Below the pieces are notes generated by a model. That model did no database searches, was not told the DNA's origin, and saw only the letters and a list, made by a program, of their open reading frames with translations. Below are positions 3,372 through 22,293 of a stretch of 52,245 nucleotides of DNA, piece after piece. Position numbers and translations under genes: made by a program. Origin of the DNA: Pseudomonadota bacterium (GTDB taxonomy: Bacteria; Pseudomonadota; Gammaproteobacteria; Burkholderiales; Sulfuricellaceae); NCBI GenBank assembly GCA_021801705.1, contig JAJYXP010000078.1, positions 1 through 52,245 on the forward strand, in the 5' to 3' direction. How positions within the stretch are numbered: the stretch's first letter is position 1; each line of letters begins with the position of its first letter.

Positions 3372-3664
3372 CAGGCGAGCAGGGCGGCACCTTCGGCAGC
3401 GAGCATGACGAACATGTCTTCCACTAGCGGCAAGTCAAGCTCGTCCATGCGTTTCATCACCGCCGCCCCCTGTTCGGGCATGTCCGGCATGCAGGCAAGA
3501 TTGCCCACATGTTCCTTGTGCACCGCGAGGACGCCGCGGGAGCCGAAGAAGACCGTGACCCTGGAGCCGTTGCGCAGTAGCGAAAGCGCTGTCATCAGGG
3601 CATTGAAGACCTGGCAGAGCTCGTCGTGGAAACACATGATGGATACATTTCTGGACGGGGTCAT
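3248..3664 (-). CDS. DsrE/DsrF/DsrH-like protein
   Basis: 138-aa protein resembling the DsrE_2 group of sulfur-relay proteins. Seen: an alternating beta/alpha pattern starting NVSIMCFHDE, a second block RVTVFFGSRGVLAVHK (35-50), and a conserved late cysteine C98 in LLACPLNIPLFGM, the probable persulfide-carrying residue; other cysteines are at 11, 17 and 58. It lies 22 bp upstream of the cysteine desulfurase start, in one transcription unit. The 3' third is part of the 223-bp direct repeat, so a truncated copy exists at 23.8 kb. AAGGA lies upstream of the ATG. Function in sulfur transfer is inferred from family and context. Confidence 0.75.
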   Translation of the reverse strand: MTPSRNVSIMCFHDELCQVFNALMTALSLLRNGSRVTVFFGSRGVLAVHKEHVGNLACMPDMPEQGAAVMKRMDELDLPLVEDMFVMLAAEGAALLACPLNIPLFGMSPGDLVEGVKVADPARYYKDVVIQADMNLTF

Positions 3665-5519: not shown

Positions 5520-5533
5520 GTATCTCCCGATTC

Positions 5534-7076: not shown

Positions 7077-9821
7077 TCAGGTTTTCTCGACGTCAACCGT
7101 CGTTTCGTTGAAGATGCGGTTCGGGTTGAAGCCGCCGGCCGTATATTTGACGTGGCCGTAGCCGCCCACCAGTTCCAGCGGGTTGATCAACTCGCTGCCG
7201 ACATCGTTGTAGTGGGTCCTGTTCTTGTACTGGTACTGCTCCCAGCCGTGCTCGCTGAAGACTACGTTCTCGGGCAGGCCGGGCCAGGCCTTCACCATGG
7301 CGAAGAACTCACCCGCGGAGTTGAATACCCGCACCATGTCGCCGTCCTTGATGCCCTTTCTGGCCATTGCCTCGGGGTTGAGCCGCACGTCTGGCGTGCC
7401 GCGCTGATGGCGTAGCATCCATTGCTCGGTGCGGGCAAAGGAGTGCACGCCCCAGCGGGTATGCGGTGAGTTATACACGAAGGGATACCTCCTCGGCGCC
7501 ACTACGCCGCCGCCGTACTGCGGTTTCGGCACCGTCGCGCCGAAGCGCTGGAACCAGTCGTGGTCCACGTAGAACTGCAGGCGCCCGGTCAGCGTCCCGT
7601 AGGGCTTCTTATCGGTAACGTTTACCGTGAAGGGCCGGTAGGGCTTGTCCTTGGGAACTGGCCCGGTCTTGCCGGCCGAGGGGCCGACCTCGGCGAAGCC
7701 GTTCTTCAGCACTTCCTCGTAGGTGCCGGGGCCCAGCGCCTTGGATCTTTCCATGACGAAGCGCAGCGCGTCCTCGTCGCGGGCGACGGCCCCCTTCATG
7801 GTGAAATCGTCGTAGAAGGTATCAAAGTCGATGGCGCTCTTGATTTCCGGATCGTCGACCCTGGCGATGCCGCGAGCTCTGGCGCGCTCCTGGATCTTGG
7901 AAGCGAGCGCCACGCCGATCGCCCAGTCGGTCTTGCGCTCGTACATGGGCTTGACCGGCTGGCCGAAGGCGTGGATGAAGCGGGTCACCGAGGTCTCGCG
8001 GATGTCCAGCTTCTCGATATTCTCCGCCGCCGGCAGGACGATGTCGGAATACATGCACCCCGAGTTCATGCGGAAGTCCACGTTCACCAGCAGCTCGCAG
8101 CGCTTGAGAAAGTTCTCCGCCAAGTGACTGTAGGCGTTGGATGTGGCAAAGATGTTCACGCCGGCGTTGATGTAGACGACCGGATCCTTGATGGATTGCC
8201 AGTTGGGCATCCAGCCCTTGGCCTCCGACTCCTTGCGCAAGGCCTCCATGTCGTCGACACCGAAGCCGATCTGCTCGTGCAACTGGGCATCGTCGTAGTA
8301 GGCCTTGGAGCGCCGGTACTGTTCGCCCCACACCCATTGCGCCAGCACCATGGAAACGCTACGTCCCGGCTTGCCCTTCACCGCGCCGAGCTCCGTGCCC
8401 CCTTCCAGCTTCCAGCCCTCGTAGGTGGTATCGATGGAACCGGTGGTGCCGTGGTGGCCAATCAGGGTAATGATGAGGATTTTCAGGCGGCCGCACTGGA
8501 AGCCGTCGAAGTGCTTCTGGTTGTTGTAGCCGTCGAGGATGCGCAGCGCCTTGCACTCGGCGATCCAGCCGGCAAGCTTGCGCACCACGGTCGGATGCAC
8601 GCCCGTGGTCGCCTGGGTGGCTTCCGGCGTGTAGGGAGCGATCTCGGCCTTCAGACGCTCGAAAACGGTGGTGACCTGGACGCCCTCCGCAGAGAACGAC
8701 CCTTCCAGCGCCGGATCGACGGCGCCGAACTTCAGGGTCTTGTCCTTGCTGCCCATGCTGCCGGGCGCCAGCACCGCCTTGCCGGTCTTGATGTCCCAGA
8801 CGTAGAAAACCTGGTCGCTGCCGTCCGGCTTGAAGTCCTTCTCGCGCAGGAACTTGCCGTTGTCGGTGCGCACCAGGAAGGGCAGGTCGGTCTGCTCCTT
8901 GAGATAGTCCGGCTTGTAGTATTTGCCGGCGATGAGCACGTTGATGATGGCCGCGGCGAGATGGGAGTCCGTGCCCATCTTGACCGGCACGAACAGGTCG
9001 GAGTGGATCGAGGAGGGGTTATAGTCCACCGAGATGTTCACCAGCCGCGCCCCGTTGTAGCGCGCCTCCATCAGGAAGTGCGCATCCGGAATCCGCGTGA
9101 CGATGGGATTCATGTGCCACATCAGGATGAGGTCGGATGTGAACCAGTCGTCGAAGGTGGACACGCTACGCGCCGGTACACGCACCGTCTGGATGCCGGG
9201 ATAGAGGTCGCCGGTCATCGACGACACGTCCGGCTTGATGGCGCCCAGCAGGTTGGCCAGCCGGGTGTAGACGGTGTTGCTGATGACGGCAAATGGACGC
9301 TTGGAGACGACGATGTTGCCCGGCCCGCGCGTGAGCGTGGTGTCGATGATCTTGTCGGCGATCTCTGTGAGCGCCTCGTCCCAGGAGATGCGCTTCCACT
9401 TGCCCTCGCCGCGGGCGCCAACGCGCTTCAACGGATACTTGAGATGGTCTGGCTGCTTCGACCAGGAACAATAGACGGCACCCTTCTGGCAGCCCCGCGG
9501 GTTCATGTCGGGGATGCCGGGCAATTGCGGGTACTTGCTGACCTGTTCGTCGCGCATAGGGATGCCGTTTTTTACGTAGACATTCCAGGCACAGCCTGCC
9601 ACGCAGCCAATGGAGTGTGTGGTGAAGCCCACCGAATCCCAGGTCCATTCCTTGCGGTAGAGATCTTCCCAGCTTCGGTAGGGATAGCTCTTAAGTGGAT
9701 CCTCGACGGGCAGGATCTTGGAGAATGCCCACACGCTCGATGGCACAGCGGCGCTGGCAAGCGCTGCAGCGGAGAGTTGCAGGAATTTGCGGCGACCGTT
9801 GACGTCATTGGGACTGTTCAT
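7077..9821 (-). CDS. Type II DMSO-reductase-family molybdopterin oxidoreductase, alpha subunit
   Basis: 914-aa catalytic subunit with bis-MGD molybdenum. Seen: Tat signal [16 protein letters not shown] (twin Arg at 10-11); the H-x3-C-x3-C cluster with H69, C73, C77 and C111 in NPRGCQKGA, the His-first [4Fe-4S] pattern of the NarG/DdhA/SerA/EbdA/ClrA/PcrA clade; a candidate Asp Mo ligand, D205 in MTGDLYPG; a C-terminal MGD-binding domain with [16 protein letters not shown]. Start at 9821 (MNSPND) with GGAG 7 nt upstream; longer readings lack this. The clade acts on selenate, (per)chlorate, dimethyl sulfide, ethylbenzene or nitrate; nothing here decides among them, and a sulfur compound is only suggested by the neighbours. 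It heads the alpha-beta-chaperone-gamma-moaA operon behind two FNR-like boxes. Confidence 0.9.
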
Positions 9822-9883
9822 GGCATTTCTCCAGGTTCGGTTCAGAAGCGAATACAGTTTCCTTTGGCTTGTGCCAGTGGGTT

Positions 9884-9897
9884 TTGACACGGGTCAA
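9884..9897. promoter_or_regulatory. FNR/ANR-like box 1 (TTGAC-N4-GTCAA)
   Basis: TTGACACGGGTCAA is a perfect 5-4-5 palindrome of the FNR/ANR/DNR type (consensus TTGAT-N4-ATCAA, with G/C variants in ANR/DNR sites). It is 63 bp upstream of the molybdoenzyme alpha start, a plausible activator or RNA-polymerase-proximal position. Confidence 0.55.
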
Positions 9898-9969: not shown

Positions 9970-10131
9970 CTATTCTTCCTCTTTCTTCATGCCCTTGTGA
10001 CAGTCGATGCAGGTCTCGCCTTTCTTCTGGGCAGCTTTGTGACGGAGCCAGGCCATCGCCGCCTGGGGCTCCTCGGGCATACCCTTGAAGCTGTGGCAAT
10101 TGCGGCACTCGCGCGAGTCGGATGCCTTCAT
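9970..10131 (-). CDS. Mini diheme cytochrome c (NapC/NirT C-terminal-like)
   Basis: 53-aa reading frame starting MKASDSRECRNCHSF with two heme motifs, CRNCH and CIDCH, and a charged tail KGMKKEEE. 'RMKASDSRECRNCHSF...CIDCHKG' is the C-terminal two-heme part of NapC/NirT-type quinol dehydrogenases, but the membrane anchor and first two hemes are absent, and there is no signal peptide. The ATG is 8 nt after the stop of the FecR-PKD gene. It may be a truncated remnant or a frame once fused to an exported partner. Without a signal peptide it could not receive heme in the periplasm, so a pseudogene is likely. Confidence 0.5.
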   Translation of the reverse strand: MKASDSRECRNCHSFKGMPEEPQAAMAWLRHKAAQKKGETCIDCHKGMKKEEE

Positions 10132-10141
10132 GCGCTTCCGC

Positions 10142-11074
10142 TCAGCAGCCACAATCCGCCTCGACTGAAATGCCCGTCTGGGCCGAGGCCTTCTCGCCGT
10201 TCTCATCTTCCACCCGCAGGATCACGACGTACAGGCCCTGGGTAAAGGTGTGCTCCGCCTCCTTCGTCGATGCCGATTCGCCGTCGCCGAAATCCCACGC
10301 GATGGACTTGAGTTTTCCGCTGCCGCCCCCGACCACGGCCTTGAAGTTCACCTTGTAGGGCGCATTGCCGCGGCGGTTGGCCACGCCGCCGATCTTGGCG
10401 GCGAGTTTTCCGCCGGCCGCCCCGGCGCTCTCCTCGGCGAGAAGGCTGCCGCCCAGATCCTTGGAGACCTTCGCCAGGGACTGTTTGATCTTGTCATCCA
10501 TGGGCTTGACGGCGTCCTGCGCCGGTTTGGCCCCGGCAGTGATCGTGACCTGCTGGCCGTCGTCGATCCGGAGGCGATCCGTGCCCACGTCGATAACCAG
10601 CCGGCCGATCACGGACCACGCAGTGAAGCTCTTCTTGTCCGGATCATGGTTAATGGCGAACTCGGCGCCCTGGGTTCGCACGTTCAGCGCCCCCATGCGG
10701 ACCTGGAATTCGGAGAACAGGTGCTCGGGCACCTGAGCCTTGATGAAAAGGCGCCCTTTGTGCAGGTCCAGGATCGTCTTCTCCATCTTCTTCTCCAGAT
10801 CGAAACTCACGCCCGCCAGCTCGATCTCGGTATTGGGATAGAGCTTCACCATGCTGCCGTTGGACCAGAAGAGCAAAGCCCCGGACTTGTCCCTGGCGGC
10901 CAGGCGGTCACCGCGATCGAGGACATCGCCCTCCTTCGCTGGCTTCCAGTCCTGCGCGCCGCTTCTCCTGATCTCGACGCTGCCGTCACTCTGGGTGATC
11001 CTTACGTTCGACGCGTCCTCAGCCCATGCAAAAGCGCCCCACATCAGAAAAACCGCAACCAACAGATGTTTCAT
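10142..11074 (-). CDS. FecR-domain and PKD-domain exported protein
   Basis: 310-aa protein with signal peptide MKHLLVAVFLMWGAFAWA, a FecR-like domain at about residues 25-165 (GDVLDRGDRLAARDKSG, VRTQGAEFAI), a hinge rich in Ala/Lys, and a C-terminal PKD domain at about 220-303 with the signature WDFGDGESAS and HTFTQGLYVVILRVED. It ends in ADCGC. FecR domains usually sense or bind surface signals, and PKD domains mediate protein contacts outside the cytoplasm; there is no FecI sigma factor nearby, so a FecIR regulatory role is unlikely. Start at 11074 because this gives the signal peptide. It follows the PKD lipoprotein gene in the molybdoenzyme operon. Likely a periplasmic or outer-membrane accessory of that complex (inference). 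Confidence 0.75.
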   Translation of the reverse strand: MKHLLVAVFLMWGAFAWAEDASNVRITQSDGSVEIRRSGAQDWKPAKEGDVLDRGDRLAARDKSGALLFWSNGSMVKLYPNTEIELAGVSFDLEKKMEKTILDLHKGRLFIKAQVPEHLFSEFQVRMGALNVRTQGAEFAINHDPDKKSFTAWSVIGRLVIDVGTDRLRIDDGQQVTITAGAKPAQDAVKPMDDKIKQSLAKVSKDLGGSLLAEESAGAAGGKLAAKIGGVANRRGNAPYKVNFKAVVGGGSGKLKSIAWDFGDGESASTKEAEHTFTQGLYVVILRVEDENGEKASAQTGISVEADCGC

Positions 11075-11105
11075 GACTGACCTACCCTTCATTGAAAAAA
11101 CCGGT

Positions 11106-11462
11106 TCAAATTCCGCCGCATCCATGGGATTCCGAATCGATTGCCACGCTCGCCTTCCTGACGTGTCCGGCGGCATCGGTCACCGTGAGGATGACGTCGT
11201 AGCGACCGACCTCGTACTCCTGTTCGGGCGTTTCCGGGCCATCCCACTCCTTGCCGTTGCCGAGATTCCAGTGGAACCGCAGGGGCGGCACCAGCCCGGC
11301 AGTTTCGGCCCTCAAAGCGACGATCTTCGGCGGCCGCCCCGTGCATAGATCCTCGACCAGAATCCTCACGGATGGCCCCGTGTCATGCGTTGCGCCCGGC
11401 CGGCCCAACATGCCCGCCGTGCATCCGGACAGGAGCAATGCCACAAACGCGACCCATTTCAT
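11106..11462 (-). CDS. PKD-domain lipoprotein
   Basis: 118-aa protein with a lipoprotein signal MKWVAFVALLLSGC (lipobox LSGC, lipidated C14). A single immunoglobulin-like PKD-type domain follows, with FHWNLGNGKEWDGPETPEQEYEVG and YDVILTVTDAAGHV. It ends SHGCGGI. The ATG at 11462 lies 2 nt after the stop of the beta-barrel gene, so the two are translationally linked; longer upstream readings run through the barrel gene and are rejected. It resembles the PKD half of the following FecR-PKD protein, suggesting the two form a pair. An outer-membrane lipoprotein binding the barrel is an inference. Confidence 0.7.
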   Translation of the reverse strand: MKWVAFVALLLSGCTAGMLGRPGATHDTGPSVRILVEDLCTGRPPKIVALRAETAGLVPPLRFHWNLGNGKEWDGPETPEQEYEVGRYDVILTVTDAAGHVRKASVAIDSESHGCGGI

Positions 11463-11464
11463 TG

Positions 11465-13306
11465 CTAGAACTTGACCTCCCCGCCGAAAACCAACTCGTA
11501 AGCGGGTTTGGGATCGCTCCCGTCGGGCAGCGCGTAGACGGCTCCAGGGCGGAAGTAGCCGATGGAAGCAAAACCATCCAAACGCTTGTAGAGCGGATAG
11601 GTCACGTTGAGGTCGGCTTCCCATCCCACATCCCTTGTCGTGCTGGTCGATGTGGCCGTGCCACGGCTCCAGTCCAGGATCGGCCCCCGGCCTTCGAACA
11701 CGGCCTTCGTCGTCCAGAGCTTGGTCAGCGACGGGGTAATTTTCAGGCCCTTGCGCGGCTCCAGGGTGGTGTCCAGGCGCACATAGGTGATGTTGGAGAG
11801 ATTGCTGTCCCAGAAATTGTATCCCGCGCGGATGTCCTCGCTGTAGATATTTCCGAACTTGTGCCGTTCCTTGCACAGGAACAGTCCGTTGAAATTCTGC
11901 ATCGTGCCGCTGGCCGTGCTGTCGGTTCCGTTGCCGGAGCCCCGGCCGAATTCAAGCCCGGCGGAAAGATTCGCCAGGGATCCAACCCTGCCGAGGTCGC
12001 GCGTGGCTTTCAGGAGCAGCGCATTGGCCTTGAGTTTCCGGTCCGCTGTGTAGTCGCCGGAAAGCAAGATGGCTTCCGCCTCGAACTTCCAGTTCTGGAA
12101 ATCGGCGGATGCGGCGATGCCCGTCCAAAGCGGCTGGAAGCCGCCGTCCCGCGGCATCGTGGCCGCATCGAAGTCCTTGTCCAGGTTCAGGTCCGCGTCG
12201 CCTGCGCCGCCGCGGTCGACGACTTTCAGGAGATAGGGCTTCACGCGCAGCGAGCGCGAGGGACGGACGTCGAGATCCAGGTAATAGGCGTCCAGCTTGT
12301 TCTTCGCATTGAGCAGTGCATCGCGAGGTCCGGCCGGCGGCCCGCCCGCGGCCCTGAAGTCCGTGTAATCCCGCCAACCGCCGGCGACCGACATGTAGCC
12401 GCCGGACAGGGTGGTCTGCCCCCAAGGCAACTGGCCGAAGGGATACTGGAGGCGAACCGCGTCCATCGGCCCTTCGAGGACGATTTTATTCCCCACGTCC
12501 CAGTTCTGGCGTCCCGCCCGGACCATGAAGGGGCCGGTGTATTGGACGAACAGCTCGCGCACCAGTTGGGAATTGAGCGTCTGGAACTGGCCCCAGCGTT
12601 CCAGCGTTCCTTCGCTGTCCTCCTTCCAGTCGAACGTCAGATTACCCTTGTCCAGCACCAGCCTGGCCAGGAGCGCCTCGTAGGTGGCGTCGACCTGCAA
12701 CGAATAGCGCTGGTCGAAATACGTCGCGTTGTCGAATTCCCAGTTCTGCCGCGAGTTGCCCAGGTCGAAACGTCGGCGGGAGTTGACCTGCCCCTTGTAC
12801 TTGCCGGAGAAGTCGAACTTGACCTTATCCTTCTGCTCTTCCTGCTGCTTGGCCGCCTCCGCCTGGGACTTCCGCGCCTGGGTTTCCAGCGCCAGCAGCC
12901 GCCGCCGGGCTTCCTCGTCGCGCCCTTCCGGCTTCTTGGCGACTTCCGGCTCGGCCCACTCGTCGTCACCCGCACCCTTGGCCGCCGGTGGCGCCTGCCG
13001 AGCCTCAGCGCCCGGCTGCGTGCCTCCGGGCTTTTGCTCTTTCCTGAGAAGCTCGGCCTGAAGCCGCGCGGTCTCCGCCTTGAACTGGGCCACCTGGGCT
13101 TCCAGTTCCTGCAGCCGGCGCAGGATCTCCGCCTCGGCTCCCCGCCTCCCGGACGCCATGCGCTGGGACTGGCCCTGGGGCTGCGATTTCTTTCCCAGCG
13201 ACCTGACTTGCTCCGCCTGCACGCCGGAAGCGCTTCCGGCGATCAGGCCGGCCGCGATCAGTCCCGGCACCCACGGGCGAGCTCTATTGGTGGTTCGCTT
13301 CTGCAT
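11465..13306 (-). CDS. Outer-membrane beta-barrel (porin-like) with N-terminal coiled coil
   Basis: 613-aa exported protein. Signal peptide through about residue 31 (GLIAAGLIAGSASGVQA); a coiled-coil stretch at about 55-85 (EAEILRRLQELEAQVAQFKAE) and again at about 130-165 rich in Glu/Arg/Gln; then about 440 residues of alternating amphipathic strands (KFDFSGKYKGQVNSRRRFD ... YELVFGGEVKF) ending in a C-terminal Phe, as in outer-membrane barrels. The strand pattern is like the alginate-export/porin superfamily; homology to MtrB/MtoB was not established. It sits directly downstream of a triheme cytochrome gene, an arrangement reminiscent of porin-cytochrome electron conduits. A hairpin (13344-13362) precedes the gene. 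Confidence 0.75.
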   Translation of the reverse strand: MQKRTTNRARPWVPGLIAAGLIAGSASGVQAEQVRSLGKKSQPQGQSQRMASGRRGAEAEILRRLQELEAQVAQFKAETARLQAELLRKEQKPGGTQPGAEARQAPPAAKGAGDDEWAEPEVAKKPEGRDEEARRRLLALETQARKSQAEAAKQQEEQKDKVKFDFSGKYKGQVNSRRRFDLGNSRQNWEFDNATYFDQRYSLQVDATYEALLARLVLDKGNLTFDWKEDSEGTLERWGQFQTLNSQLVRELFVQYTGPFMVRAGRQNWDVGNKIVLEGPMDAVRLQYPFGQLPWGQTTLSGGYMSVAGGWRDYTDFRAAGGPPAGPRDALLNAKNKLDAYYLDLDVRPSRSLRVKPYLLKVVDRGGAGDADLNLDKDFDAATMPRDGGFQPLWTGIAASADFQNWKFEAEAILLSGDYTADRKLKANALLLKATRDLGRVGSLANLSAGLEFGRGSGNGTDSTASGTMQNFNGLFLCKERHKFGNIYSEDIRAGYNFWDSNLSNITYVRLDTTLEPRKGLKITPSLTKLWTTKAVFEGRGPILDWSRGTATSTSTTRDVGWEADLNVTYPLYKRLDGFASIGYFRPGAVYALPDGSDPKPAYELVFGGEVKF

Positions 13307-13343
13307 AATCCTTACCCTGCTTATGCCTCCGGCCCCGACTTGC

Positions 13344-13362
13344 CCGGCGAAGCGCCGGGCAA
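13344..13362. other. Intergenic hairpin in the molybdoenzyme operon
   Basis: GCCCGGCGAAGCGCCGGGC can form a stable stem-loop between the triheme cytochrome and barrel genes. There is no T run after it on the transcribed strand. It may act as a processing or stability element that sets different levels of the two products. Confidence 0.45.
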
Positions 13363-13385
13363 TGACAGGCTTTTCGGCAGTGATG

Positions 13386-13949
13386 TTATTTTCCTGCTTC
13401 CGGAGCCCCGTAGAACGTCTTGATCTTGCTGTCGGGCCCATGGCATTCCGCGCAAACCAGCCGTTTGAGGGTCGGCTTGAAGAGGTCAGGCTCCATCGGC
13501 CGCAGCGCTTCCACGCGGGTGTATTGCACGCCCTCGCCCGGACGCACGATCAATTTCTTCCACACGCCCGCAGGAGAATGTGCCGAATTGGGATGGTAGA
13601 CATCGGCCATAATGAACCATCCTTCCTTCTCGCGGGCGTTTTTCGTGGGAGTCCACATTTCGTGACAAGTCAGGCAGTCACGGTTTCTGCCGTTGTAAGC
13701 GACTTTTTTCGATTCCAAGTGGCGGCGGTGCAAGTTGGAAATATCCGCGCGGGCGGTCTTCATCTCGAGGATATATCCATGGCAGCCCAGACATATCTTG
13801 TTCTTCTTGCTGTAGTCGGGAACTTTGCCTTTCTGTTGGTTGGAAACCGCCCTGGGCGGCCAGTCTATGGGCGACTGGACCTCCAGCGCCGCCATGGTCG
13901 CCGTCGAGGCAAGTGCGAGGAATGCAAAACTCAAGATTCTGTAACGCAT
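13386..13949 (-). CDS. Periplasmic triheme cytochrome c
   Basis: 187-aa protein with signal peptide MRYRILSFAFLALASTATMA and three heme motifs: CLGCH (53-57), CLTCH (92-96) and CAECH (166-170). Extra histidines (H74, H77, H119, H124) could serve as distal ligands for bis-His hemes. I do not recognise the exact family. It sits between a TorD-like chaperone gene (its start overlaps that gene's end by 19 nt) and the outer-membrane barrel. The likely role is carrying electrons between the exported molybdoenzyme and a membrane or outer-membrane partner (inference). No membrane segment besides the signal is visible. Confidence 0.85.
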   Translation of the reverse strand: MRYRILSFAFLALASTATMAALEVQSPIDWPPRAVSNQQKGKVPDYSKKNKICLGCHGYILEMKTARADISNLHRRHLESKKVAYNGRNRDCLTCHEMWTPTKNAREKEGWFIMADVYHPNSAHSPAGVWKKLIVRPGEGVQYTRVEALRPMEPDLFKPTLKRLVCAECHGPDSKIKTFYGAPEAGK

Positions 13950-14623
13950 GGTGTCCTCCCTTCGGAGTGGATTTCATGGGTCAATTCCGGCACGTCCTTT
14001 TGCTCGTCCTCCAAAAATGCGATGGTGAGGCGGGCGAGCGCCCGGTACATGTCCAGATCCGTTTCGTCGATGATCCGTTCGCACAGGGGCCTGTACCAGC
14101 GCAGCAGGTGCTCGGTGAGGAAGCCGTTCTGGAAGCTCAGGCATTTCTGCAGCCCCGCCCAGTTGGGTTCCTTCCAGAACTGCTCCTCGATGTCGCACAG
14201 GAATTTCATGAACTCCAGTTCGACCCCCATGTGGTCGGGCAGCTCCAGGCAGGCGCCGGTCAGTCGAGCGGCCGCCTCCTCGTAATACTGTTGCACCGCG
14301 ACGGTCACGCGGCCGCCCAGGCGCTGGTTTTCATCGGCGTAGAAGGCCTCGTGGGGCACCACGCCGGTGGGCAGGACGAAAAGCCGGGTATGCTCCGCCG
14401 CAAGCTCGTTTTCGAGTTGCGTTCCGCTGGCGGCTTCCCGGAAGAAGAACGTCAGGTCGTTCGCCGCCGTGCCGAAAGGTCCGCGCTCGTCCTGAACGAG
14501 CCCGCCTTCACGGATCATCTCCGTCAGATCGGCGCTAGGCGGGGCCGCGTAGAGCGCGGAGAGCACGGCATAAGTTCTCGCGCGCCCGGCGGCAACGGTT
14601 TGCATTTGCTTAGGGTTGATCAC
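13931..14623 (-). CDS. TorD-like chaperone of the second molybdoenzyme
   Basis: 230-aa helical cytoplasmic protein of the TorD/DmsD group. Seen: RTYAVLSALYAAPPSADL near the start, ELAAEHTRLFVLPTGVVPHEAFY, and the DHMGVELEFMKFLCDIEEQF helix. Start placed at GTG 14623 because GGAGG lies 8 nt upstream (14632-14636) inside the end of the preceding ferredoxin gene; an in-frame upstream ATG (14656) has no such site. The GTG overlaps the ferredoxin stop, suggesting coupled translation. It presumably matures the alpha subunit encoded at 16.5-19.4 kb, distinct from the other TorD gene at 5.5 kb. Confidence 0.85.
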   Translation of the reverse strand: MINPKQMQTVAAGRARTYAVLSALYAAPPSADLTEMIREGGLVQDERGPFGTAANDLTFFFREAASGTQLENELAAEHTRLFVLPTGVVPHEAFYADENQRLGGRVTVAVQQYYEEAAARLTGACLELPDHMGVELEFMKFLCDIEEQFWKEPNWAGLQKCLSFQNGFLTEHLLRWYRPLCERIIDETDLDMYRALARLTIAFLEDEQKDVPELTHEIHSEGRTPCVTES

Positions 14624-15791
14624 TCTGATTTCCTCCAAGAAAGAAACGTCGCGCAATCGCGTCCCGGCGGTCGCCGCTCGCGAGGCACGACAGGCGGTGC
14701 TCCGATGCCTCGCCCAGGAAGCTCTCGTGGCATGCCTGGCAAGTTTGCCGCGGTGCGGAAATTAGCGTGACGCTCGGCTGATCGAACAGCACGGACAGAT
14801 CGACCGTTTCACGGATGCGAATGGCTTGATGGAAGCACGCGGCTTCGCAGACCCGGCAGCCGGTGCACAGCGCAGGATAAAAATCGAGGGCATAGACGCC
14901 GTTCGCTTCGCGATGGCGCAGCGCCTCCACGGGGCAAAGCGTTTCACAGACATTGCAGCCCACGCACTGGCTGCCCACTTCCACATCGGCAAACGGCAAT
15001 CCGGCAGCGGGAAGCGACTTCGACCTCGCCTCGGCGCCCGGGAGAGCGCGTAGCACTTGCAGCAGCTCCGTCCGCTTCGGATTCCCGTGATGCCGTTGCA
15101 CAGCGTCCCGGAATACCTCGGCCGGCTTCTGCCCGGTCGCCCCGTCCTCCGTCGCCGCGACAGCCCCGGCATCCTTCCACTTCTCGGCGATGGCACGGAA
15201 CATCGCCCGGCGCGGGTTGGGAGATTCGGAAGCCTCCCGGGTCTCCTGCGGCCTGCCGACCGACACCGGGATCCGACCAACCCGGCCGGCGGTGAAACCC
15301 GCCGATTCGCACAGCGCCTGCGCGAGAAACAGGGCTCTCTCCCACTGGGGGGCGTCCCGGTTCAGCCCGCAGCCCGAGCAACCGGGATCGAGGAATTCCG
15401 CGCGCGCGGCCCCGCCTCGAATCGGCTCCAGCAGGAGCGCCTCCGTCAGCCGGCTGAGGCAAGGCAGCACCAGGTCCACCTTCCCTTCCGCCCGGGGGCA
15501 GGCGATGCGGAAAGTCTCTCCCGGCCGCACCCGGCTACGGATGCGTTCCGCGAGCTGCGGATCGCTTTCCTTGAGGCTGATCGCACCGTTCGGGCAGGCA
15601 GAAGCGCAGGCGCCGCACCCGACGCAGGCGTCGGTGATTTCGGCGCCCTGCCCGGCAAACTGAACCGCGCCGGGAACCGGGCACACCACCGCACACGAAG
15701 TACAATACGACTTCGTGGTCCGGAAGCGGGAGCACAAGCCGTGCTCCACGCTTGCCGGCAGCTCCGGCCGGATTTTGGCAAGCATGTCCAT
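14610..15791 (-). CDS. Multi-cluster 4Fe-4S ferredoxin-type protein
   Basis: 393-aa cysteine-rich protein. In order: CTSCAVVCPVPG (about residue 30), CVGCGACASACPNG (about 56), CSGCG (about 140), then after a low-complexity linker CVGCNVCETLCPVE (about 275), CTGCRVCEAACFHQ (about 305), and late CQACH (about 350). This suggests two pairs of [4Fe-4S] ferredoxin clusters. No signal peptide or membrane segment is seen, so it should be cytoplasmic unless co-exported. Similar extra ferredoxins accompany some Psr/Ttr/Arx-type molybdoenzyme operons (family knowledge, not a match). The CQACH looks like a heme motif but would not be hemylated in the cytoplasm. Ribosome site is weak; start ATG 15791 or the in-frame ATG two codons later. 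Confidence 0.75.
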   Translation of the reverse strand: MDMLAKIRPELPASVEHGLCSRFRTTKSYCTSCAVVCPVPGAVQFAGQGAEITDACVGCGACASACPNGAISLKESDPQLAERIRSRVRPGETFRIACPRAEGKVDLVLPCLSRLTEALLLEPIRGGAARAEFLDPGCSGCGLNRDAPQWERALFLAQALCESAGFTAGRVGRIPVSVGRPQETREASESPNPRRAMFRAIAEKWKDAGAVAATEDGATGQKPAEVFRDAVQRHHGNPKRTELLQVLRALPGAEARSKSLPAAGLPFADVEVGSQCVGCNVCETLCPVEALRHREANGVYALDFYPALCTGCRVCEAACFHQAIRIRETVDLSVLFDQPSVTLISAPRQTCQACHESFLGEASEHRLSCLASGDRRDAIARRFFLGGNQSDQP

Positions 15792-15815
15792 GCTGTTGAC
15801 CGTCTCCGCAATCCG

Positions 15816-16442
15816 CTACTTGGTGGTGGTGTAGCGCACGCTGGGATTGGTGTCGGCACCGGCCACGGTGATGCTCACGGCGCGCGCCTGTCTCTCCCGC
15901 ATGAGCGGCGTCAGCTCATTCAATTCGCCGAAGAACCGCACCTTGGCCGGACAGGTGTTAACGCACGCGGGCAGCAGGCCCTTCTCGACGCGATGGACGC
16001 ACAGCGTGCATTTCTCCATAACCTTCGCCTCTGCGTTGAACTGGGGCGCGCCGTAGGGGCACGCCCAGGCGCAATAGCGGCAGCCGATGCACTTGTCCTT
16101 GTTGATGAGGACGATGCCATCTTCCTTGCGCTTGGTGATCGCGCCCACCGGACAGGCCGCCAGGCAGGCCGGCCGCCCGCAGTGCATGCAGGGCATCGGC
16201 ACGAAAGTGACGCCGACATTCGGCGCCTTCTGCGGATCGCGGAAATCCCCTTCCTCGATCTCGATCACGCGGTTGTAGTCGACGCCGATGGGCGTGTTGT
16301 TCTCCGACTTGCAGGCTATCGTGCAGGCATTGCAGCCGATGCAATGCTCGATGTCGACCCAAAGCGTGTATTGCTTCGGACCCTGCTTGGCGAAGGAGCG
16401 GTCGACGGCTTCACGGGGAATGACGGATTTGTATTCAGACAT
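15816..16442 (-). CDS. Molybdoenzyme beta subunit, four-cluster ferredoxin
   Basis: 208-aa iron-sulfur subunit of the PsrB/PhsB/TtrB/DmsB type. Seen: CIGCNACTIAC (34-44), CMHCGRPACLAACP, CIGCRYCAWACPYG and CTLCVHRVEKG...CVNTCP, giving four Cys quartets for [4Fe-4S] clusters; the third cluster keeps all cysteines, unlike the type II beta subunit at 6.1 kb. No signal peptide, so it would be exported with the alpha subunit. It lies 10 bp after the alpha stop. The expected next partner, an NrfD-type quinol-binding membrane subunit, is absent. Confidence 0.92.
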   Translation of the reverse strand: MSEYKSVIPREAVDRSFAKQGPKQYTLWVDIEHCIGCNACTIACKSENNTPIGVDYNRVIEIEEGDFRDPQKAPNVGVTFVPMPCMHCGRPACLAACPVGAITKRKEDGIVLINKDKCIGCRYCAWACPYGAPQFNAEAKVMEKCTLCVHRVEKGLLPACVNTCPAKVRFFGELNELTPLMRERQARAVSITVAGADTNPSVRYTTTK

Positions 16443-16452
16443 GATGCCCTCC

Positions 16453-19377
16453 TTAAACTTTTTCTACACGGAGCGGCGTCCCATTGCTCTGGGTGCCGCC
16501 CGATACGGGATCGATCAAGATGCGGTCGCCCAGAACGGGATCGGCCATGTGCAACGGGTTGAGGCTGAAGCCCGCGCCGATGCGCTTGTCGTGGTATTGC
16601 GGCTTGCCGTCCGCTGTCCATTCCTTGCCTCCCCCGGCCCCCCAGCGCCCGTAGGACTGGCTCACCGAGAAGACCCCCGGCCGGATGCGGCTGGTGACGC
16701 GCACCTGCATCTTGAACCAGCCATCGCCCAAGGAGAGTTCCACGAACGGGATGTGCTTGCTCGAAGGCGACTTGACCTTGACCCAGTCGCCGGTTATGAC
16801 GCCGAGTTTCTGCGCGTCGCCCGGATTCATCTCCGCATAGTTCTGCGGCTTGATCGAGGCCAGCCAGAGGTTGTTCATGGTGCGCGACTGCGTGTGCCAG
16901 GCATCCTTGTGGGTGTGGAGCTGGAACGGGTATTCCTTCCAAATGGCCGGATCGAGCGGCTGCTCCTTGCAGTCGAAGATGGTACGGTATTGCGGCAGGC
17001 CATCGTAGAACTTGCCCGTCATGCTGTTCTTGTTTGCCGCCACGTTCGCCGCATACGCCAGCAGGCCGCGCACCTGCCTGCCGCCCGGGAAGCGCGTGTA
17101 GTCGCCATCGTACTGCTTGCCAGGGTTCTCGAACTTGCCGCCGAGCTTGACCAGGCGGCTGTCCGGATCCAACCCCGGCTCGCCCTTGTAGTCGCCGTTC
17201 TTGTAGTACTCGTTCCAGAACTGCCAGGAGTTGAAGATATCCACGCCGGGACCGCCGCCGTCCTTGCCGAAGCCGGGCAGTCCGCAGCGGATGGCAAGCT
17301 GGATCAGCGTATCGTCCGCCGTCTGCACATCAGGATGGATGCCGCGGTAGTTCTTGGTCTTCGGATCGAGGGTGCCGACCACCGGCTGCCGCAGCCCCGC
17401 GACGCGCGTCTTGATGGGCGGGTAGGTCTTGAAGCCGCCGATGCGCTCCAGGTACTCGGTGTCCGGCAGGACGTAGTCGCACAGCTGGCTGGTCTCGCCC
17501 ATGTTGGCGTCGATGCTGAAGGTAAGCGGCATCGCCTTCAGGTCGAGGAAGGCCTCGATGACCGGGGCGTTGAACGGCTGGGTATAGGCCGGATTGTTGA
17601 AGTAGTTCAGGTAGGCCTTGATGCGGTACGGATAGCCTTTCCGCACGGACGAGAAGAACTCGCTGGCCACGGTGCGCACCGCCAGCGGATAAAATGGGCG
17701 CGTCGAAAACGGCTTCTTGCCCTGATACTTGGCTTTGTTACGATCGACCGGTACGCCCGTCGCTGTGCGCTTGGGGCCTTTCACGTCCCCGCCGAACGCC
17801 TTGTGTCCGGGAATGTAGCCGCCCTTGCGGTCGATGTTGTCCACCATCATGTTGAGGATGCACAGCGCCTGACCATTCCACCAGCCGTTCGTCTGCTGGA
17901 CCGGGCCGCGGAACATCTCGATCACCGGCCGCTTGGCGCTGGAAAACTCCTTGCCCAGATGCGCAATCGTGCCGGCGGGAATATCGCACTCCCGCTCGCA
18001 CTCTTCCAGCGATTTCTCCTGCGCCCGCTCGCGCAGCATGCGGAAGACCGTCTTGTACTTCTCGCCCTTGATCTCGACTTCGGCATCGAGGTCGGCCGGC
18101 CCGTCCACCTCGTGGAACAGCGTTGGCTTGCCATTGACCAGCACCACGTAGTCGGCCTGGCCCAGACCCGCATCCTTGCCCGAGAGATACAGCTTGGGTT
18201 CCTTGGTCCTGACCAGGTAGGTCATGTCGGTCCAGTTGCGCCGGCCGGTCTTCTTCGCCGCCTGCTCGTTCGGCAAGGCAAGGAAGTCGGACTTGTAGGC
18301 CTTGTTCTCGATCATCCAGCGGATCATCCCGATGAGGAAGAAAGCGTCCGTCGAAGGTTTGAGGGGGATCCACTCGCCTTTGCCTTGAAGAGCCTTCGCG
18401 GCGCCTGGGGAGAGCCAGGGGTCGACCACGACGTGCTTGAACTCCTTGGCGTAGGGCCCCATGCGCTTGGCGAACTTCTGCAGGTAACGGGCCTTGGTCT
18501 GCCCGGGGTAATCGGCGTGGGTGATGTTGGATCCCACGCTGATCAGGTAGCTGCAGTACTCGTAATCGGCATAGGCGCCAATCTCGTAGGGTGGCACGTT
18601 GAGCGTGTGCTCGACGACGTTGTAGAAAGTTCCGGCGCAGCGGTCGCAGTGGTTGAGCATGTTCGGGGAGCCCGCAGCTTCCTTGACGAAGCGCGGCGTC
18701 AACGGCGACTGTTCGTTGCGCCCGTGCGCCCAGACGAACTGGTTGCGTTTGGGGCCCCAGCCTTCCGCCGGCGCCTCGTCCATGTAATCCGAGTCCTCCG
18801 CGCCCATCGGCTTGTCGTTGTTGAGGATAGACTTGAGACCCTCGACCTGCCGGGTCTCCTCCCCCGGCACGTTCTTGAAGAGGAGGCCGCCTTCGCAGAT
18901 CTCGGTCAGCGCCTGGTCCCACGAGATGGTTTTCCACTTGCCGGAGCCGCGCGGCCCGACGCGCTTGAGCGGATGCTTGAGGCGGTTGGGATTGTAGAGG
19001 GCATAGACGCCCGCCTGGCCTTTCGCGCAAAGCGTGCCGGCGTCCTTGCCGTTGAGGCCGCCGTCCAGATCGCTCTCCTCGACGATGTCGCCTTTAGCCA
19101 CGTAGTCGTAGGTGTTCGGGTGATAGGGGTTGCCGTCGATCTTGACCAGCTCGCCGTTCACGATCGTGCATTGAATGCCGCAACCGCTGTGGCACATCAG
19201 GCAGACGCTGCGCACGATCTTCGCGTCGGCGCCCACCATGTCCGGCCTGGAACCGGTCTTGCCCACTTGCGCAAGCCACTCCTGCGCGCTCACCGGCTGG
19301 ATTTGCGAGAGTACTACAGTCGCCCCGGAAACCTTGAGAAATTCGCGCCGGGTAAGGTGATTATCAAGCAGTTTCAT
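16453..19377 (-). CDS. Molybdopterin oxidoreductase alpha subunit (Psr/Phs/Ttr/Arr-like)
   Basis: 974-aa Tat-exported catalytic subunit. Seen: twin-arginine motif LTRREFLKVSG (Arg 10-11); [4Fe-4S] motif C59-x2-C62-x3-C66...C117 (CLMCHSGC, LCAKG); a candidate Cys molybdenum ligand in GSPNMLNHCDRC (C244 or C247); and the C-terminal MGD-binding domain. The Cys-first cluster and likely Cys ligand place it with the thiosulfate, polysulfide, tetrathionate and arsenate reductase branch, unlike the NarG-like enzyme at 7-9.8 kb. Substrate and direction are unknown; a sulfur oxyanion or metalloid is suggested by the three-component PhnD-like sensor next door (AioX/ArxX and TtrS are precedents). AGGAGG lies 8 nt before the ATG. 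Confidence 0.9.
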   Translation of the reverse strand: MKLLDNHLTRREFLKVSGATVVLSQIQPVSAQEWLAQVGKTGSRPDMVGADAKIVRSVCLMCHSGCGIQCTIVNGELVKIDGNPYHPNTYDYVAKGDIVEESDLDGGLNGKDAGTLCAKGQAGVYALYNPNRLKHPLKRVGPRGSGKWKTISWDQALTEICEGGLLFKNVPGEETRQVEGLKSILNNDKPMGAEDSDYMDEAPAEGWGPKRNQFVWAHGRNEQSPLTPRFVKEAAGSPNMLNHCDRCAGTFYNVVEHTLNVPPYEIGAYADYEYCSYLISVGSNITHADYPGQTKARYLQKFAKRMGPYAKEFKHVVVDPWLSPGAAKALQGKGEWIPLKPSTDAFFLIGMIRWMIENKAYKSDFLALPNEQAAKKTGRRNWTDMTYLVRTKEPKLYLSGKDAGLGQADYVVLVNGKPTLFHEVDGPADLDAEVEIKGEKYKTVFRMLRERAQEKSLEECERECDIPAGTIAHLGKEFSSAKRPVIEMFRGPVQQTNGWWNGQALCILNMMVDNIDRKGGYIPGHKAFGGDVKGPKRTATGVPVDRNKAKYQGKKPFSTRPFYPLAVRTVASEFFSSVRKGYPYRIKAYLNYFNNPAYTQPFNAPVIEAFLDLKAMPLTFSIDANMGETSQLCDYVLPDTEYLERIGGFKTYPPIKTRVAGLRQPVVGTLDPKTKNYRGIHPDVQTADDTLIQLAIRCGLPGFGKDGGGPGVDIFNSWQFWNEYYKNGDYKGEPGLDPDSRLVKLGGKFENPGKQYDGDYTRFPGGRQVRGLLAYAANVAANKNSMTGKFYDGLPQYRTIFDCKEQPLDPAIWKEYPFQLHTHKDAWHTQSRTMNNLWLASIKPQNYAEMNPGDAQKLGVITGDWVKVKSPSSKHIPFVELSLGDGWFKMQVRVTSRIRPGVFSVSQSYGRWGAGGGKEWTADGKPQYHDKRIGAGFSLNPLHMADPVLGDRILIDPVSGGTQSNGTPLRVEKV

Positions 19378-19990: not shown

Positions 19991-20845
19991 ATGAAACCCT
20001 TAATCAGAATTGTTTTATTGGCAGCCGCGGCTGTTCTTGCCAACCCGACGCTCGCCGCAGAGGAGCCTGCCAAGATACTGCGCATAGGCTTGACGCCGAC
20101 GGTTCCGTACGATCAATACCAGTTGATCGAGCAATGGCGCCTCTACATGGAGCGCAAGCTCAACCGGCGGGTTGAATTCATACGGCGCGACAGCTACATC
20201 GAGACGATGGATATGCTGCGCCGGAGGAAGCTGGACTACGCCTGGATCTGCGACTACCCCTTCGTGTACTTCAGGAGCCAGGTCAGGCTGCTGGCGGTGC
20301 CGCTCTATCAGGGACGTCCCTACTACCGGTCCTACCTGATCGTACCGGCAACGAACCGGAGCACGACATCCATCGCGCAGCTGCGCGGTGTGGTTTTTGC
20401 CTATACGGACCCCTATTCCAACACCGGCTATCTCGTGGCGCGGCACCAGTTGCACCAGATGGGTGAAAACCCGGCGCAGTTCTTCCGCCAGACGTTCTTT
20501 ACCTGGTCACACCGCAAGGCGGTGGAGGCCGTGGCAACCGGGATGGCGGATGGCAGTGCGGTGAGCGGCCACGTCTGGGACACGCTGACCATAGTCAAGC
20601 CCGAATTGACAGCAGCGACGCGCATCGTTTCGAAGTCGTCCGAATTCGGCTTTCCGCCGCTCGTGGCGAACCCGACGGTGCCCAACGAGGAATTCCGCAA
20701 CGTGCAGAAAGCGCTGCTGGGCATGGCGTCAGACAGTAAAGGCAAGGCGTTGCTGAAAGGGTTGAACATCGACGGTTTCATTGCGGGCAGCCCGCATCTG
20801 TATGACAACGTCGCCCGAATGATGAAGGCCGTCGGCGAGAAATGA
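19991..20845 (+). CDS. PhnD-like periplasmic substrate-binding protein (sensor component)
   Basis: 284-aa exported protein: signal peptide MKPLIRIVLLAAAAVLANPTLA, then a two-lobed PhnD/phosphonate-binding fold (LRIGLTPTVPYDQYQ, DYAWICDYPFVYF, FAYTDPYSNTGYLVARHQL). No ABC transporter permease or ATPase is near; its stop overlaps the start of a membrane histidine kinase by 4 bp. This is the arrangement of the AioX/ArxX and phosphonate-like sensor proteins, and TtrS carries the same fold fused to its kinase. The likely job is to bind a periplasmic oxyanion and signal through the kinase (inference). The ligand cannot be read from sequence. Confidence 0.8.
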   Translation: MKPLIRIVLLAAAAVLANPTLAAEEPAKILRIGLTPTVPYDQYQLIEQWRLYMERKLNRRVEFIRRDSYIETMDMLRRRKLDYAWICDYPFVYFRSQVRLLAVPLYQGRPYYRSYLIVPATNRSTTSIAQLRGVVFAYTDPYSNTGYLVARHQLHQMGENPAQFFRQTFFTWSHRKAVEAVATGMADGSAVSGHVWDTLTIVKPELTAATRIVSKSSEFGFPPLVANPTVPNEEFRNVQKALLGMASDSKGKALLKGLNIDGFIAGSPHLYDNVARMMKAVGEK

Positions 20846-22293
20846 ACCCTCTGCTCAATCTCAGCTTCCGCTACAAGGTCCCGCTGTGGGGTGGCGTCCT
20901 CATCGTCGTCGCTACGCTGGCGGTTTCCGCCGCGCTCATGAAGCAGGCCTACGACGACCTCAAGAGCGACCTGATGAATAGCTCCGCCAACCTGAGCCGG
21001 ACGCTGGCGAAGACGCTGTTCCCTTCCATGATGCACGAAGAGGTATGGCGCGCTTATGAGATCATCCTGGCACCGCTGGATGCCGGGCAGGGTGGCAGCC
21101 GTATCCAGCCGGAACTGATTGTCGCGCTGGACAACCGGCAGCGCGTCTTCGTTTCCAGCCAGCCGAAATCCGTTCCGTTGTCAGCCGATATCCGGCAGTT
21201 CGGCGAGGAGTATGCGCATCTCGCCGATCGGATTGCAGCACGATCTGAGCCTGACGCTGCAATCATCGAATTCTCCGGCTCCCGCCGAATTTATGTCGCC
21301 GCCCCCGTAGCCGAGGAGGGCGCGCGATTGGGAACGCTGGTCATCGTGCATTCCAAAGACGTATTCCTGCCGCGCTTCAAGAACGTCGCTTCGCGCGGTG
21401 CAGTGATCGGCCTTCTCGTGCTTGCGGTGCTGCTGCCGATCAACTGGTACTGGGGGCAGCGGACGGCCGTACCCCTGGTGCAACTGGCCTGCAGTATCGG
21501 CAAGGTGGCGCAAGGCGTGCCGCCGGAACTGCCGCCGTGCACTTATGCCTATCGGGACGAGCTCGGCCAGTTGTGCGAAGCCTATGGCCTGCTGGTCAAG
21601 GCCCTGCAGGAAAAGGGGCTGCTGGAGCAGGAGATGATCCGCTCGGAGCGGCTGGCGGCTGTCGGACGGCTGTCGGCCGGCATCGCTCACGAGATCAACA
21701 ACCCGCTCGGCGGCATGCTGGTCGCCTTGAACAACTTCAAGCGCCGGGCAGGAAATGACGAGCGCACGCTGAAAACCGTGGGCATGATCGAGCGCGGCCT
21801 GGCGCAGATACAGGACACGGTGGGCGCCATGATGGTCGAGGCAAAAGTGAAAAGCCGGGACTTCGTGCCGCACGACGTCGAGGATGTGCAGATGCTGCTC
21901 TCGGGCGAGGCGCACAAGCGGAGTGTGGCCATCCGCGTCGACAGCGACATCACGAAACCCGCCGCGCTGCCGGCAACGCTGGTGCGCCAGATCCTCATGA
22001 ATCTGCTGCTCAACGCCGTGCAGGCCTCCGAACCATCCGCCACGGTTCAATGCACGATTCGCCGCACCGGCAACACGTTGACCATCGAGACCGAGAACAC
22101 CGGTCGCACCATGCCGCCGGAAGTCATGAGCCATCTTTTCGAGCCCTTCGTCAGCAGCAACGAGGCCGGGCACGGGCTCGGACTGTGGGTCACCTATCAA
22201 ATTGTTTCGCAACTGGGCGGGCAGATCACGGCCGAGAGCCGCGATGGCCTGACGCGCTTTTCCGTTTCGCTTCCCGCAGGAGAAAATTCATGA
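20842..22293 (+). CDS. Membrane sensor histidine kinase
   Basis: 483-aa kinase. Seen: transmembrane helix 1 at about 15-33, a periplasmic domain of about 150 residues, helix 2 at about 187-204 (GAVIGLLVLAVLLPINWYWG), a HAMP-like linker, the HisKA box GIAHEINNPLGG with phospho-acceptor H283, N-box NLLLNAVQAS and G-box GHGLGLWVTYQI. It overlaps both neighbours by ATGA, so binding protein, kinase and regulator are made together. The periplasmic loop would contact the PhnD-like protein, as in the AioXSR/ArxXSR systems (family knowledge). Confidence 0.9.
   Translation: MNPLLNLSFRYKVPLWGGVLIVVATLAVSAALMKQAYDDLKSDLMNSSANLSRTLAKTLFPSMMHEEVWRAYEIILAPLDAGQGGSRIQPELIVALDNRQRVFVSSQPKSVPLSADIRQFGEEYAHLADRIAARSEPDAAIIEFSGSRRIYVAAPVAEEGARLGTLVIVHSKDVFLPRFKNVASRGAVIGLLVLAVLLPINWYWGQRTAVPLVQLACSIGKVAQGVPPELPPCTYAYRDELGQLCEAYGLLVKALQEKGLLEQEMIRSERLAAVGRLSAGIAHEINNPLGGMLVALNNFKRRAGNDERTLKTVGMIERGLAQIQDTVGAMMVEAKVKSRDFVPHDVEDVQMLLSGEAHKRSVAIRVDSDITKPAALPATLVRQILMNLLLNAVQASEPSATVQCTIRRTGNTLTIETENTGRTMPPEVMSHLFEPFVSSNEAGHGLGLWVTYQIVSQLGGQITAESRDGLTRFSVSLPAGENS

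Follow-up and report, generated by a model that had tools for sequence, protein, structure and literature searches.

A molybdoenzyme operon linked to a SerA/ClrA-type operon in a Sulfuricellaceae genome: a possible chalcogen-oxyanion reductase module with candidate selenoproteins among its relatives

Described molybdoenzyme systems such as TtrABC, SrdBCA, SerABDC/ClrABDC and SrrABC form the background for an operon on contig JAJYXP010000078.1 of a Sulfuricellaceae bacterium (assembly GCA_021801705.1), the whole stretch analyzed, positions 1 to 52,245, being referred to as the window. The genome measures 2.84 Mb at 98.75% completeness, the window being its contig C7, and the operon, on the minus strand of the window, opens with the gene for a molybdopterin oxidoreductase, alpha. 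Alpha is a member of the dimethyl sulfoxide (DMSO) reductase family, where it lies in the TtrA/SrdA branch as a separate clade. We suggest, with a probability of roughly 0.4, that the operon encodes a horizontally spread, quinol-fed periplasmic module with a molybdenum-bis(molybdopterin guanine dinucleotide) (Mo-bisMGD) enzyme for the reduction of a chalcogen oxyanion, the likeliest reaction being that of selenite to Se(0). This suggestion draws on the gene set, the clade of alpha, a [C/U]xxC motif at its Mo site (U, selenocysteine, Sec), quinol partners in relatives, linkage to an operon of the SerA/ClrA type and aligned TGA codons. Loci of relatives carry L numbers and genomes G numbers, G000 being the window's own genome.

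TtrA is the nearest curated alpha family, two-component genes adjoin alpha like ttrSR, and Nitrospirota relatives of the operon have ferredoxin and NrfD-type genes before alpha, like ttrBCA. However, alpha reaches only 358.5 bits with the TtrA model (NF011567; cut-off 1750; next PhsA, 196 bits), forms its own clade and has the additional [C/U]xxC. Its operon also adds a beta subunit, a ferredoxin, cytochromes, an AlgE-like barrel and PKD proteins, and the window has no TtrC. SrdBCA, the selenate reductase of Bacillus, falls in the same branch in published trees (PMC10100899; SrdA is compared here by description only). The order of ferredoxin and NrfD genes before alpha in Nitrospirota relatives is a likeness to SrdBCA as well, whereas no accessory set of this kind was visible in the Bacillota locus L035. 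The SerABDC/ClrABDC enzymes resemble the operon linked to alpha, which has their gene order, 84% identity to ClrA (ClrA, not Thauera SerA, being the protein compared) and a score above the type II cut-off; this enzyme is separate from alpha, and the window's genome lacks chlorite dismutase. To our knowledge, no set of barrel, PKD and multiheme proteins accompanies SrrABC, the respiratory selenite reductase of Bacillus selenitireducens, whose reaction is the one proposed here for alpha. SrrA, again compared by description, is placed in the PsrA/PhsA lineage (PMC10100899), whereas alpha is in the TtrA branch. The FdhA selenoproteins belong to alpha's superfamily of Mo enzymes and have Sec in the active site, but their Sec coordinates the metal (PMC13188914), while the Sec of alpha in relatives would align three residues before the Mo-ligand Cys. 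Two published tables list Sec among Mo/W enzymes with bis-pyranopterin guanine dinucleotide only for formate and formylmethanofuran dehydrogenases (PMC10100899, PMC7331816). A 2026 catalog of 119 selenoprotein families and subfamilies, as far as its text available to us goes, has some Fe-S proteins with Sec and no TtrA-like or DmsB-like member (PMC13188914).

The original prediction, made from the sequence, described a run of nine minus-strand frames, and domain and sequence checks found all of its named genes in place. The run reads as follows (all on the minus strand):

16453..19377: alpha, molybdopterin oxidoreductase exported by twin-arginine translocation (Tat), 974 residues, TtrA/SrdA branch, own clade; Cys244 (18646-18648) is clade-specific, and Cys247 (18637-18639) falls in the column of the family's Mo-ligand Cys
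15816..16442: beta, four-cluster ferredoxin subunit, 208 residues, 16 Cys in four cluster motifs; the codon of Cys88 (16179-16181) corresponds to TGA in six genomes of Nitrospirota
14610..15791: multi-cluster ferredoxin-like protein, 393 residues, 24 Cys, no export signal by eye; it may act in maturation or electron supply
13931..14605: TorD-type chaperone, about 224 residues, PF02613 at E 9e-22; the open reading frame (ORF) opens at 14656 and the start was picked by eye
13386..13949: c-type cytochrome, 187 residues, three CxxCH motifs (CLGCH, CLTCH, CAECH)
11465..13306: outer-membrane barrel, 613 residues, AlgE-like, coiled-coil N-terminus
11106..11462: PKD lipoprotein, 118 residues; its conserved C-terminal Cys115 (11118-11120) is TGA in seven relatives
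10142..11074: FecR-PKD protein, 310 residues, C-terminus CGC, Cys308 and Cys310 being its only Cys
9970..10206: C-terminal remnant of a NapC/NirT tetraheme gene, the NapC-derived part starting at about 10138; the membrane half of NapC and the c554-like gene are absent

Alpha carries the Tat motif RREFLK and the domains PF04879, PF00384 and PF01568, and it lies far under every curated NCBIfam cut-off scanned. In a 45-row tree, midpoint-rooted and with several long branches, the 31 alpha rows form a single clade (support 100/100, branch 1.6); the 14 rows outside it include two named TtrA proteins (L103, L104) together with archaeal, Salipaludibacillus and Citrobacter arsenatis plasmid enzymes. 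The alpha-subunit tree proposed with the original prediction thus puts alpha outside named TtrA in a clade of its own, the named references amounting to two TtrA proteins. In 150 genomes searched for the ArrA family, no protein exceeded the cut-off, and a single match stayed under it. Position 244 is Cys in 31/31 clade rows (rows with Sec entered as Cys) and Gly, Ala, Thr or Ser in 14/14 rows outside. Cys247 of the window aligns with the invariant Cys of the branch, with Cys244 three residues earlier, and in view of structures of the family we take this column to be the Mo-ligand site. Published tables give Cys as the Mo ligand of the TtrA/SrdA branch (PMC10100899, PMC7331816). The window's genome holds a second TtrA-like enzyme (C79 36311-39358, L102), 31-34% identical to alpha, that groups with an Azospirillum plasmid enzyme and named TtrA. 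On the Citrobacter arsenatis plasmid (L105, 3073-7877), a TtrA-branch enzyme that sits on a long tree branch is encoded among ars genes, accompanied by a ferredoxin and, where NrfD would be, by a hypothetical protein; this enzyme is possibly an arsenate reductase of an alternative type.

A pattern scan of 84,980 species genomes for alpha returned 35 loci, 26 of them (L009-L034) at 67-90% identity and the other nine at 25-44%. The 26 come from Beta- and Gammaproteobacteria, Nitrospirota, Rokubacteria, Armatimonadota and Delta/Myxococcota. Twenty extend to fecR (the other six end earlier), and there the order alpha-beta-ferredoxin-torD-cytochrome-barrel-fecR is kept, except that L021 (Armatimonadota) has no visible barrel and that in L009 the barrel frame is broken into two pieces. 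Of these 20 loci, 13 have a recognizable gene for the small PKD lipoprotein between barrel and fecR (L032 only at E 0.002); in L012, L013, L015, L017, L018, L020 and L021 none was recognized. In the two Sedimenticola loci the lipoprotein was not detected. Since the order recurs across phyla at such alpha identities, the gene run is no chance arrangement, and the conservation that the original prediction proposed to look for is indeed present. That the nine frames form one operon is supported by the conserved order; the run is not isolated, however, as a type II operon follows directly downstream on the same strand. An 852-residue frame with 29 CxxCH motifs lies near the Armatimonadota copy (L021, 13497-16055). 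Among closer relatives alpha is sparse: at E ≤ 1e-80 it was found in none of 60 other genomes in a sample of relatives (11 congeneric), and at E ≤ 1e-100 in two (one being the window's) of 399 genomes from the order, with at most two candidates per genome scored in the order-wide scans for alpha and for alpha2 (see below). This sparseness makes horizontal movement of the alpha operon probable, and the operon is probably a horizontally moving module. No paper on this cluster was found in the open-licence PubMed Central literature.

The original prediction saw an "anchor-less" operon that lacks NapC and ends in a mini diheme gene. Neither point was supported. The mini frame matches PF03264 (NapC/NirT) at E 1.5e-17 over profile positions 104-167 of 174. 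By eye it has neither a signal peptide nor a membrane segment, and in alignments its counterpart is the C-terminus of the NapC genes of relatives (about 200-220 residues); it reads as a NapC tail. In 11 of the 26 loci a NapC-related gene follows fecR, and in all 11 it is preceded by a c554-like tetraheme cytochrome. The L011 NapC, the only one scanned, matches NapC/NirT nearly over its full length with 294 bits, just below the cut-off of 310.6, and the L011 c554-like copy reaches 285 bits against a cut-off of 400. Comparison of the DNA of the window and L025 reveals that the end of fecR abuts the end of napC and that about 1.25 kb, which in L025 encode c554 and the first part of NapC, are missing. 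The mini diheme frame is therefore best read as a NapC remnant left by deletion, and a functional soluble cytochrome was rejected on the PF03264 match and the DNA comparison.

Other relatives have an anchor of the NrfD type. A ferredoxin and an NrfD-type membrane protein lie upstream of alpha in L020, L022, L023, L024 and L027 (the last locus is cut) and before alpha in seven of eight further Nitrospirota stretches (L141, L142, L144-L148; not L143), and the NrfD-type protein of L022 scores over the DsrP cut-off. The co-occurring NrfD-type gene that the original prediction had named as evidence against itself is thus found in part, in these five loci and seven stretches, with no anchor seen in six loci (listed below). 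In L009 a TtrB/DsrO-like ferredoxin and a further membrane-like frame lie downstream; a 349-residue frame with six CxxCH motifs (14684-15733) lies between c554 and this ferredoxin. The loci L014, L029 and L030 are cut. Because NapC or NrfD anchors occur in many relatives and the window shows the deletion, the alpha system would usually be quinol-linked and the window would hold a truncated copy.

Beyond the NapC remnant, the run continues downstream on the same strand into a type II DMSO reductase operon and then moaA, and PhnD, kinase and regulator genes diverge upstream of alpha:

7077..9890, minus strand: alpha2, catalytic subunit of a type II DMSO reductase, SerA/ClrA clade, TIGR03479
6091..7065, minus strand: beta2 of the type II enzyme, TIGR03478, 568 bits against a cut-off of 480.7
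5534..6370, minus strand: delta chaperone of the type II enzyme, PF02613 (extent of the ORF; the true start is internal)
4788..5750, minus strand: gamma heme subunit (EB_dh) of the type II enzyme, PF09459 (extent of the ORF; the true start is internal)
3797..4768, minus strand: moaA, molybdenum cofactor synthesis, found between NapC and alpha2 in several relatives
19991..20845, plus strand: PhnD-type periplasmic binding protein, divergent from alpha
20842..22293, plus strand: sensor histidine kinase, diverging upstream of alpha
22050..23642, plus strand: probable response regulator, recognized by its conserved place beside PhnD and kinase; the ORF opens before the true start

Farther along the minus strand, beyond moaA, positions 226-3664 hold an FCSD-like flavoprotein, a NifS-like cysteine desulfurase and a DsrE-like protein; kin of the NifS-like protein (61-65%) occur near alpha in L016, L026, L028 and L031.

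Alpha2 scores 1340 bits with TIGR03479 (cut-off 984.75), lies in an operon with the ABDC gene order and is 84% identical to ClrA of Ideonella dechloratans. Homologues at 82-85% are present in 11 of the 26 alpha genomes and in 0/398 other genomes of the order, where three distant ones reach 36-42%. Alpha2 thus accompanies alpha in 12/27 genomes (the window's included) versus 0/398 (Fisher p 2.8e-16), an imperfect comparison in that the 26 genomes span several phyla and the 398 come from a single order. No more than a few genes separate alpha2 from the operon in L011, L012, L016, L025, L026, L031 and L033. In both Sedimenticola species it lies 17-18 kb from alpha on the same contig, with the PhnD-kinase(-regulator) set beside alpha2. 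Kin of this set adjoin alpha in nine Betaproteobacterial loci and alpha2 in Sedimenticola and Rhodoferax, where the PhnD kin diverge from the alpha2 genes.

The alpha operon occurs in a cultured selenate respirer, Sedimenticola selenatireducens. This species respires selenate, reportedly cannot respire arsenate, and is credited in its genome paper with one gene each of the SerA-like, ClrA-like and PcrA-like kinds (PMC5052931). Strain CUZ, in contrast, is reported not to respire selenate (PMC5052931). Of its alpha2 copies, L053 groups beside Ideonella ClrA and the alpha-linked L058 beside the copy of S. hydrogenitrophicus, in a tree that leaves out L055-L057, L060, L061, L064, L065, L068, L069 and L072; their locus tags are unmatched to the published genes. 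In the window's genome, no match to chlorite dismutase (Cld; PF06778) was found, and Cld is absent from nine of the 12 alpha2 genomes. The other three, G069, G078 and G083, encode it on contigs that also carry a type II enzyme of lower identity (34-41%), presumably PcrA. A chlorate role of the linked operon in the window's genome was rejected on this absence, in which the window differs from a chlorate reduction cluster. Near the SerA/ClrA-like loci of both Sedimenticola species lie frames of about 215 residues for S-adenosylmethionine methyltransferases (L076 11904-12551, L077 1275-1934, L078 12746-13393; one was scanned). A third molybdoenzyme of about 800 residues is found downstream of the alpha operon in L010 (20434-22851) and also in L013, L024, L141, L142 and L146, taking the place of the SerA/ClrA-like operon of other Betaproteobacteria. 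Its best curated match is PhsA (285 of 694 bits), and in L141 a beta and a TorD frame follow it.

In L022, L023, L024 and L034, the codon of residue 244 of alpha is TGA in a frame that is otherwise open. Scanning 395 Nitrospirota genomes brought up 13 clade members with identities of ≥69%, besides three sequences at 37-41%. One TGA is present in six of them, four of these being new, and the codon is the same throughout, which brings the total to eight genomes. In beta, TGA replaces the second Cys of the CxxCxxxxCxxxCP motif, an Fe-S-ligand Cys, in six genomes. In the PKD lipoprotein it falls at the conserved C-terminal Cys in seven genomes and is followed by a short tail with one more Cys. The TGA-bearing loci (L022-L024, L029, L034, L141-L146 and L148; Nitrospirota and one Delta/Myxococcota relative) show varying combinations, and the states are independent: alpha reads as Sec and beta as Cys in G871 and G939, the reverse holds in G909 and G954, and the lipoprotein alone has TGA in G821 and G081.

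Downstream hairpins of the bacterial Sec insertion sequence (bSECIS) type were sought with published rules (PMC13188914: loop of 3-9 nt with a G in the first two, 16-37 nt from TGA, E ≤ -7.5), the stems being required to be uninterrupted and ≥5 bp. All eight alpha genes with TGA comply versus 3/25 versions with Cys, and 3-7% of codons do so in six alpha genes. For beta the figures are 6/6 versus 6/18 Cys versions caught by the pattern, with 11.5% of codons in one beta gene, and none of the seven PKD lipoprotein genes with TGA complies. Eleven of the 12 TGA genomes have a tRNA-Sec over the cut-off, the exception being G909 (none at E ≤ 1e-9), and so do 13/22 other genomes, some of them barely. 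SelB is over the cut-off in four of five TGA genomes tested, the exception being G081 with TGA in the lipoprotein alone. The window's own genome has TGC at all three sites, and neither tRNA-Sec nor SelB was found there over the cut-off. A recoded genetic code in Nitrospirota was rejected, since TGA is the ordinary stop of other genes in these loci.

Alternatively, the TGA codons could be ordinary stops, errors or pseudogene marks. The candidate Sec residues are indeed known from DNA alone, the lipoprotein tail is short and its genes fail the hairpin rule, a third of the beta Cys versions pass it, and tRNA-Sec and SelB match the TGA genomes imperfectly (G909, G081 and the 13 other genomes with tRNA-Sec). 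However, an identical codon in eight alpha and six beta genes, always opposite Cys and in a frame intact on both sides, the Sec/Cys mosaics between subunits, the hairpin contrast in alpha, and tRNA-Sec and SelB in most TGA genomes, together with the normal use of TGA as a stop in the same loci, make the absence of Sec very improbable. Alpha and beta of these relatives are well-supported candidate selenoproteins, and the PKD lipoprotein is a probable one. That the same three positions turn from Cys into Sec suggests that they are chemically active and ties the PKD lipoprotein to redox chemistry, beyond structure alone.

The model of the barrel is weak (predicted local distance difference test, pLDDT, 63.6), and its 17 best Foldseek matches are all AlgE. 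PF13372 (alginate export) matches 15 of 19 barrel members at E ≤ 0.01, the window's own barrel not among them, and a sequence search of the PDB with the barrel profile gave mainly coiled-coil matches. The triheme cytochrome of the window has only two CxxCH motifs in L020, L024, L027 and L029. The FecR-PKD protein gave a good model (pLDDT 84), which resembles FecR-type and PKD folds; the C-terminus is CGC in 20 of 21 sequences and CxC in 21/21. The original prediction had offered handling of a substrate by the barrel and PKD proteins as one option, and the conserved C-terminal Cys and candidate Sec residues of the PKD proteins strengthen the idea that substrate or product is handled there.

In the proposed mechanism, electrons would pass from quinol to NapC (or NrfD), on to the c554-like and triheme cytochromes, and then via beta to alpha, where a chalcogen oxyanion would be reduced, in all likelihood selenite with Se(0) as the product. 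The SerABDC-type enzyme would first make selenite from selenate. Near the outer membrane, the C-terminal thiols or selenols of the PKD proteins may take up the zero-valent product or keep it reduced, and the AlgE-like barrel may admit substrate or release product. Because the NapC/c554 entry is deleted in the window's genome, its system would be decaying or fed by another periplasmic donor. Selenite is the first choice because the partner enzyme would make it and because a cultured carrier respires selenate; sulfur oxyanions come next.

Several points weigh against selenite reduction by a quinol-fed module. The substrate of alpha is one that we infer. TtrA, in the same branch, reduces tetrathionate. 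SrdA of that branch reduces selenate rather than selenite (PMC10100899). Functional linkage to the SerA/ClrA-type operon could be mimicked by shared mobile DNA, and the PhnD set also adjoins the ClrA-like L053 copy of S. selenatireducens. Alpha2 is as near to characterized ClrA (84%) as to the Sedimenticola copies (82-83%), so that its "Ser" label rests on the absent Cld. At E ≤ 1e-60, no alpha2 was found in 12 of the 26 alpha genomes, and the genomes without a match include the four Nitrospirota with TGA in alpha and Rokubacteria, Armatimonadota and Delta members. Thauera selenatis is not among the 35 loci of the pattern scan, the presence of its genome in the scan being unchecked. As to the quinol link, there is no second PF03264 match in the window's genome, and L010, L012, L015, L032, L034 and L143 showed no anchor next to the operon.

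It is unlikely, but credible, that the module instead has a sulfur compound as its electron acceptor (tetrathionate, thiosulfate, polysulfide or some related oxyanion), in the manner of TtrA and PsrA/PhsA, and that the SerA-like neighbor serves a second acceptor. Among NCBIfam models, TtrA (358 bits) and then PhsA (196 bits) come nearest, the adjoining sensor kinase and probable regulator are placed like TtrS/TtrR beside a plasmid TtrA, and DsrE-, NifS- and FCSD-like genes lie nearby. However, alpha falls far under the TtrA cut-off of 1750 bits in a separate clade, and the linkage to the SerA/ClrA-type operon is strong. It is rather unlikely that the substrate is an oxyanion of some other metalloid or of a metal (selenate itself, arsenate, antimonate, tellurite or vanadate). 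For this speak the presence of SrdA and archaeal arsenate reductases in the same branch (PMC10100899) and the distantly related enzyme among the ars genes of the Citrobacter arsenatis plasmid, whereas S. selenatireducens is reported to be unable to respire arsenate (PMC5052931) and a second selenate reductase beside SerA would be redundant.

The selenite reading could be extended, though this extension is improbable, to a selenite-respiring machine that in some lineages forms a relay of three selenoproteins. Alpha would contribute Sec-x-x-Cys with the Mo-ligand Cys and beta a Sec-ligated [4Fe-4S] cluster; the C-terminal selenol of the lipoprotein and the CGC tail of the FecR-PKD protein would carry Se(0) to the AlgE-like channel, sparing the periplasm elemental selenium. 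Finally, the model of the original prediction is hardly probable, whether as electron exchange of the periplasmic enzyme with a conduit of barrel and cytochrome in the outer membrane or with the barrel as importer of a bulky substrate: barrel, lipoprotein and cytochrome do belong to the conserved core, but the barrel is AlgE-like by fold search and family (on a weak model) and the cytochrome has 2-3 hemes, unlike the MtrB-type barrel and large multiheme cytochrome of an MtrAB-type conduit, and many relatives have an inner-membrane quinol partner. The electron conduit was rejected on the AlgE-like barrel and the small number of hemes.

If the Sec assignments are true, Sec at a Mo site, at an Fe-S ligand and possibly in a lipoprotein tail, all encoded in a single operon, would bring Sec chemistry to sites where it is new. 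The operon, present in a cultured selenate respirer, may also bear on how Gram-negative selenate respirers reduce selenite and export Se(0).

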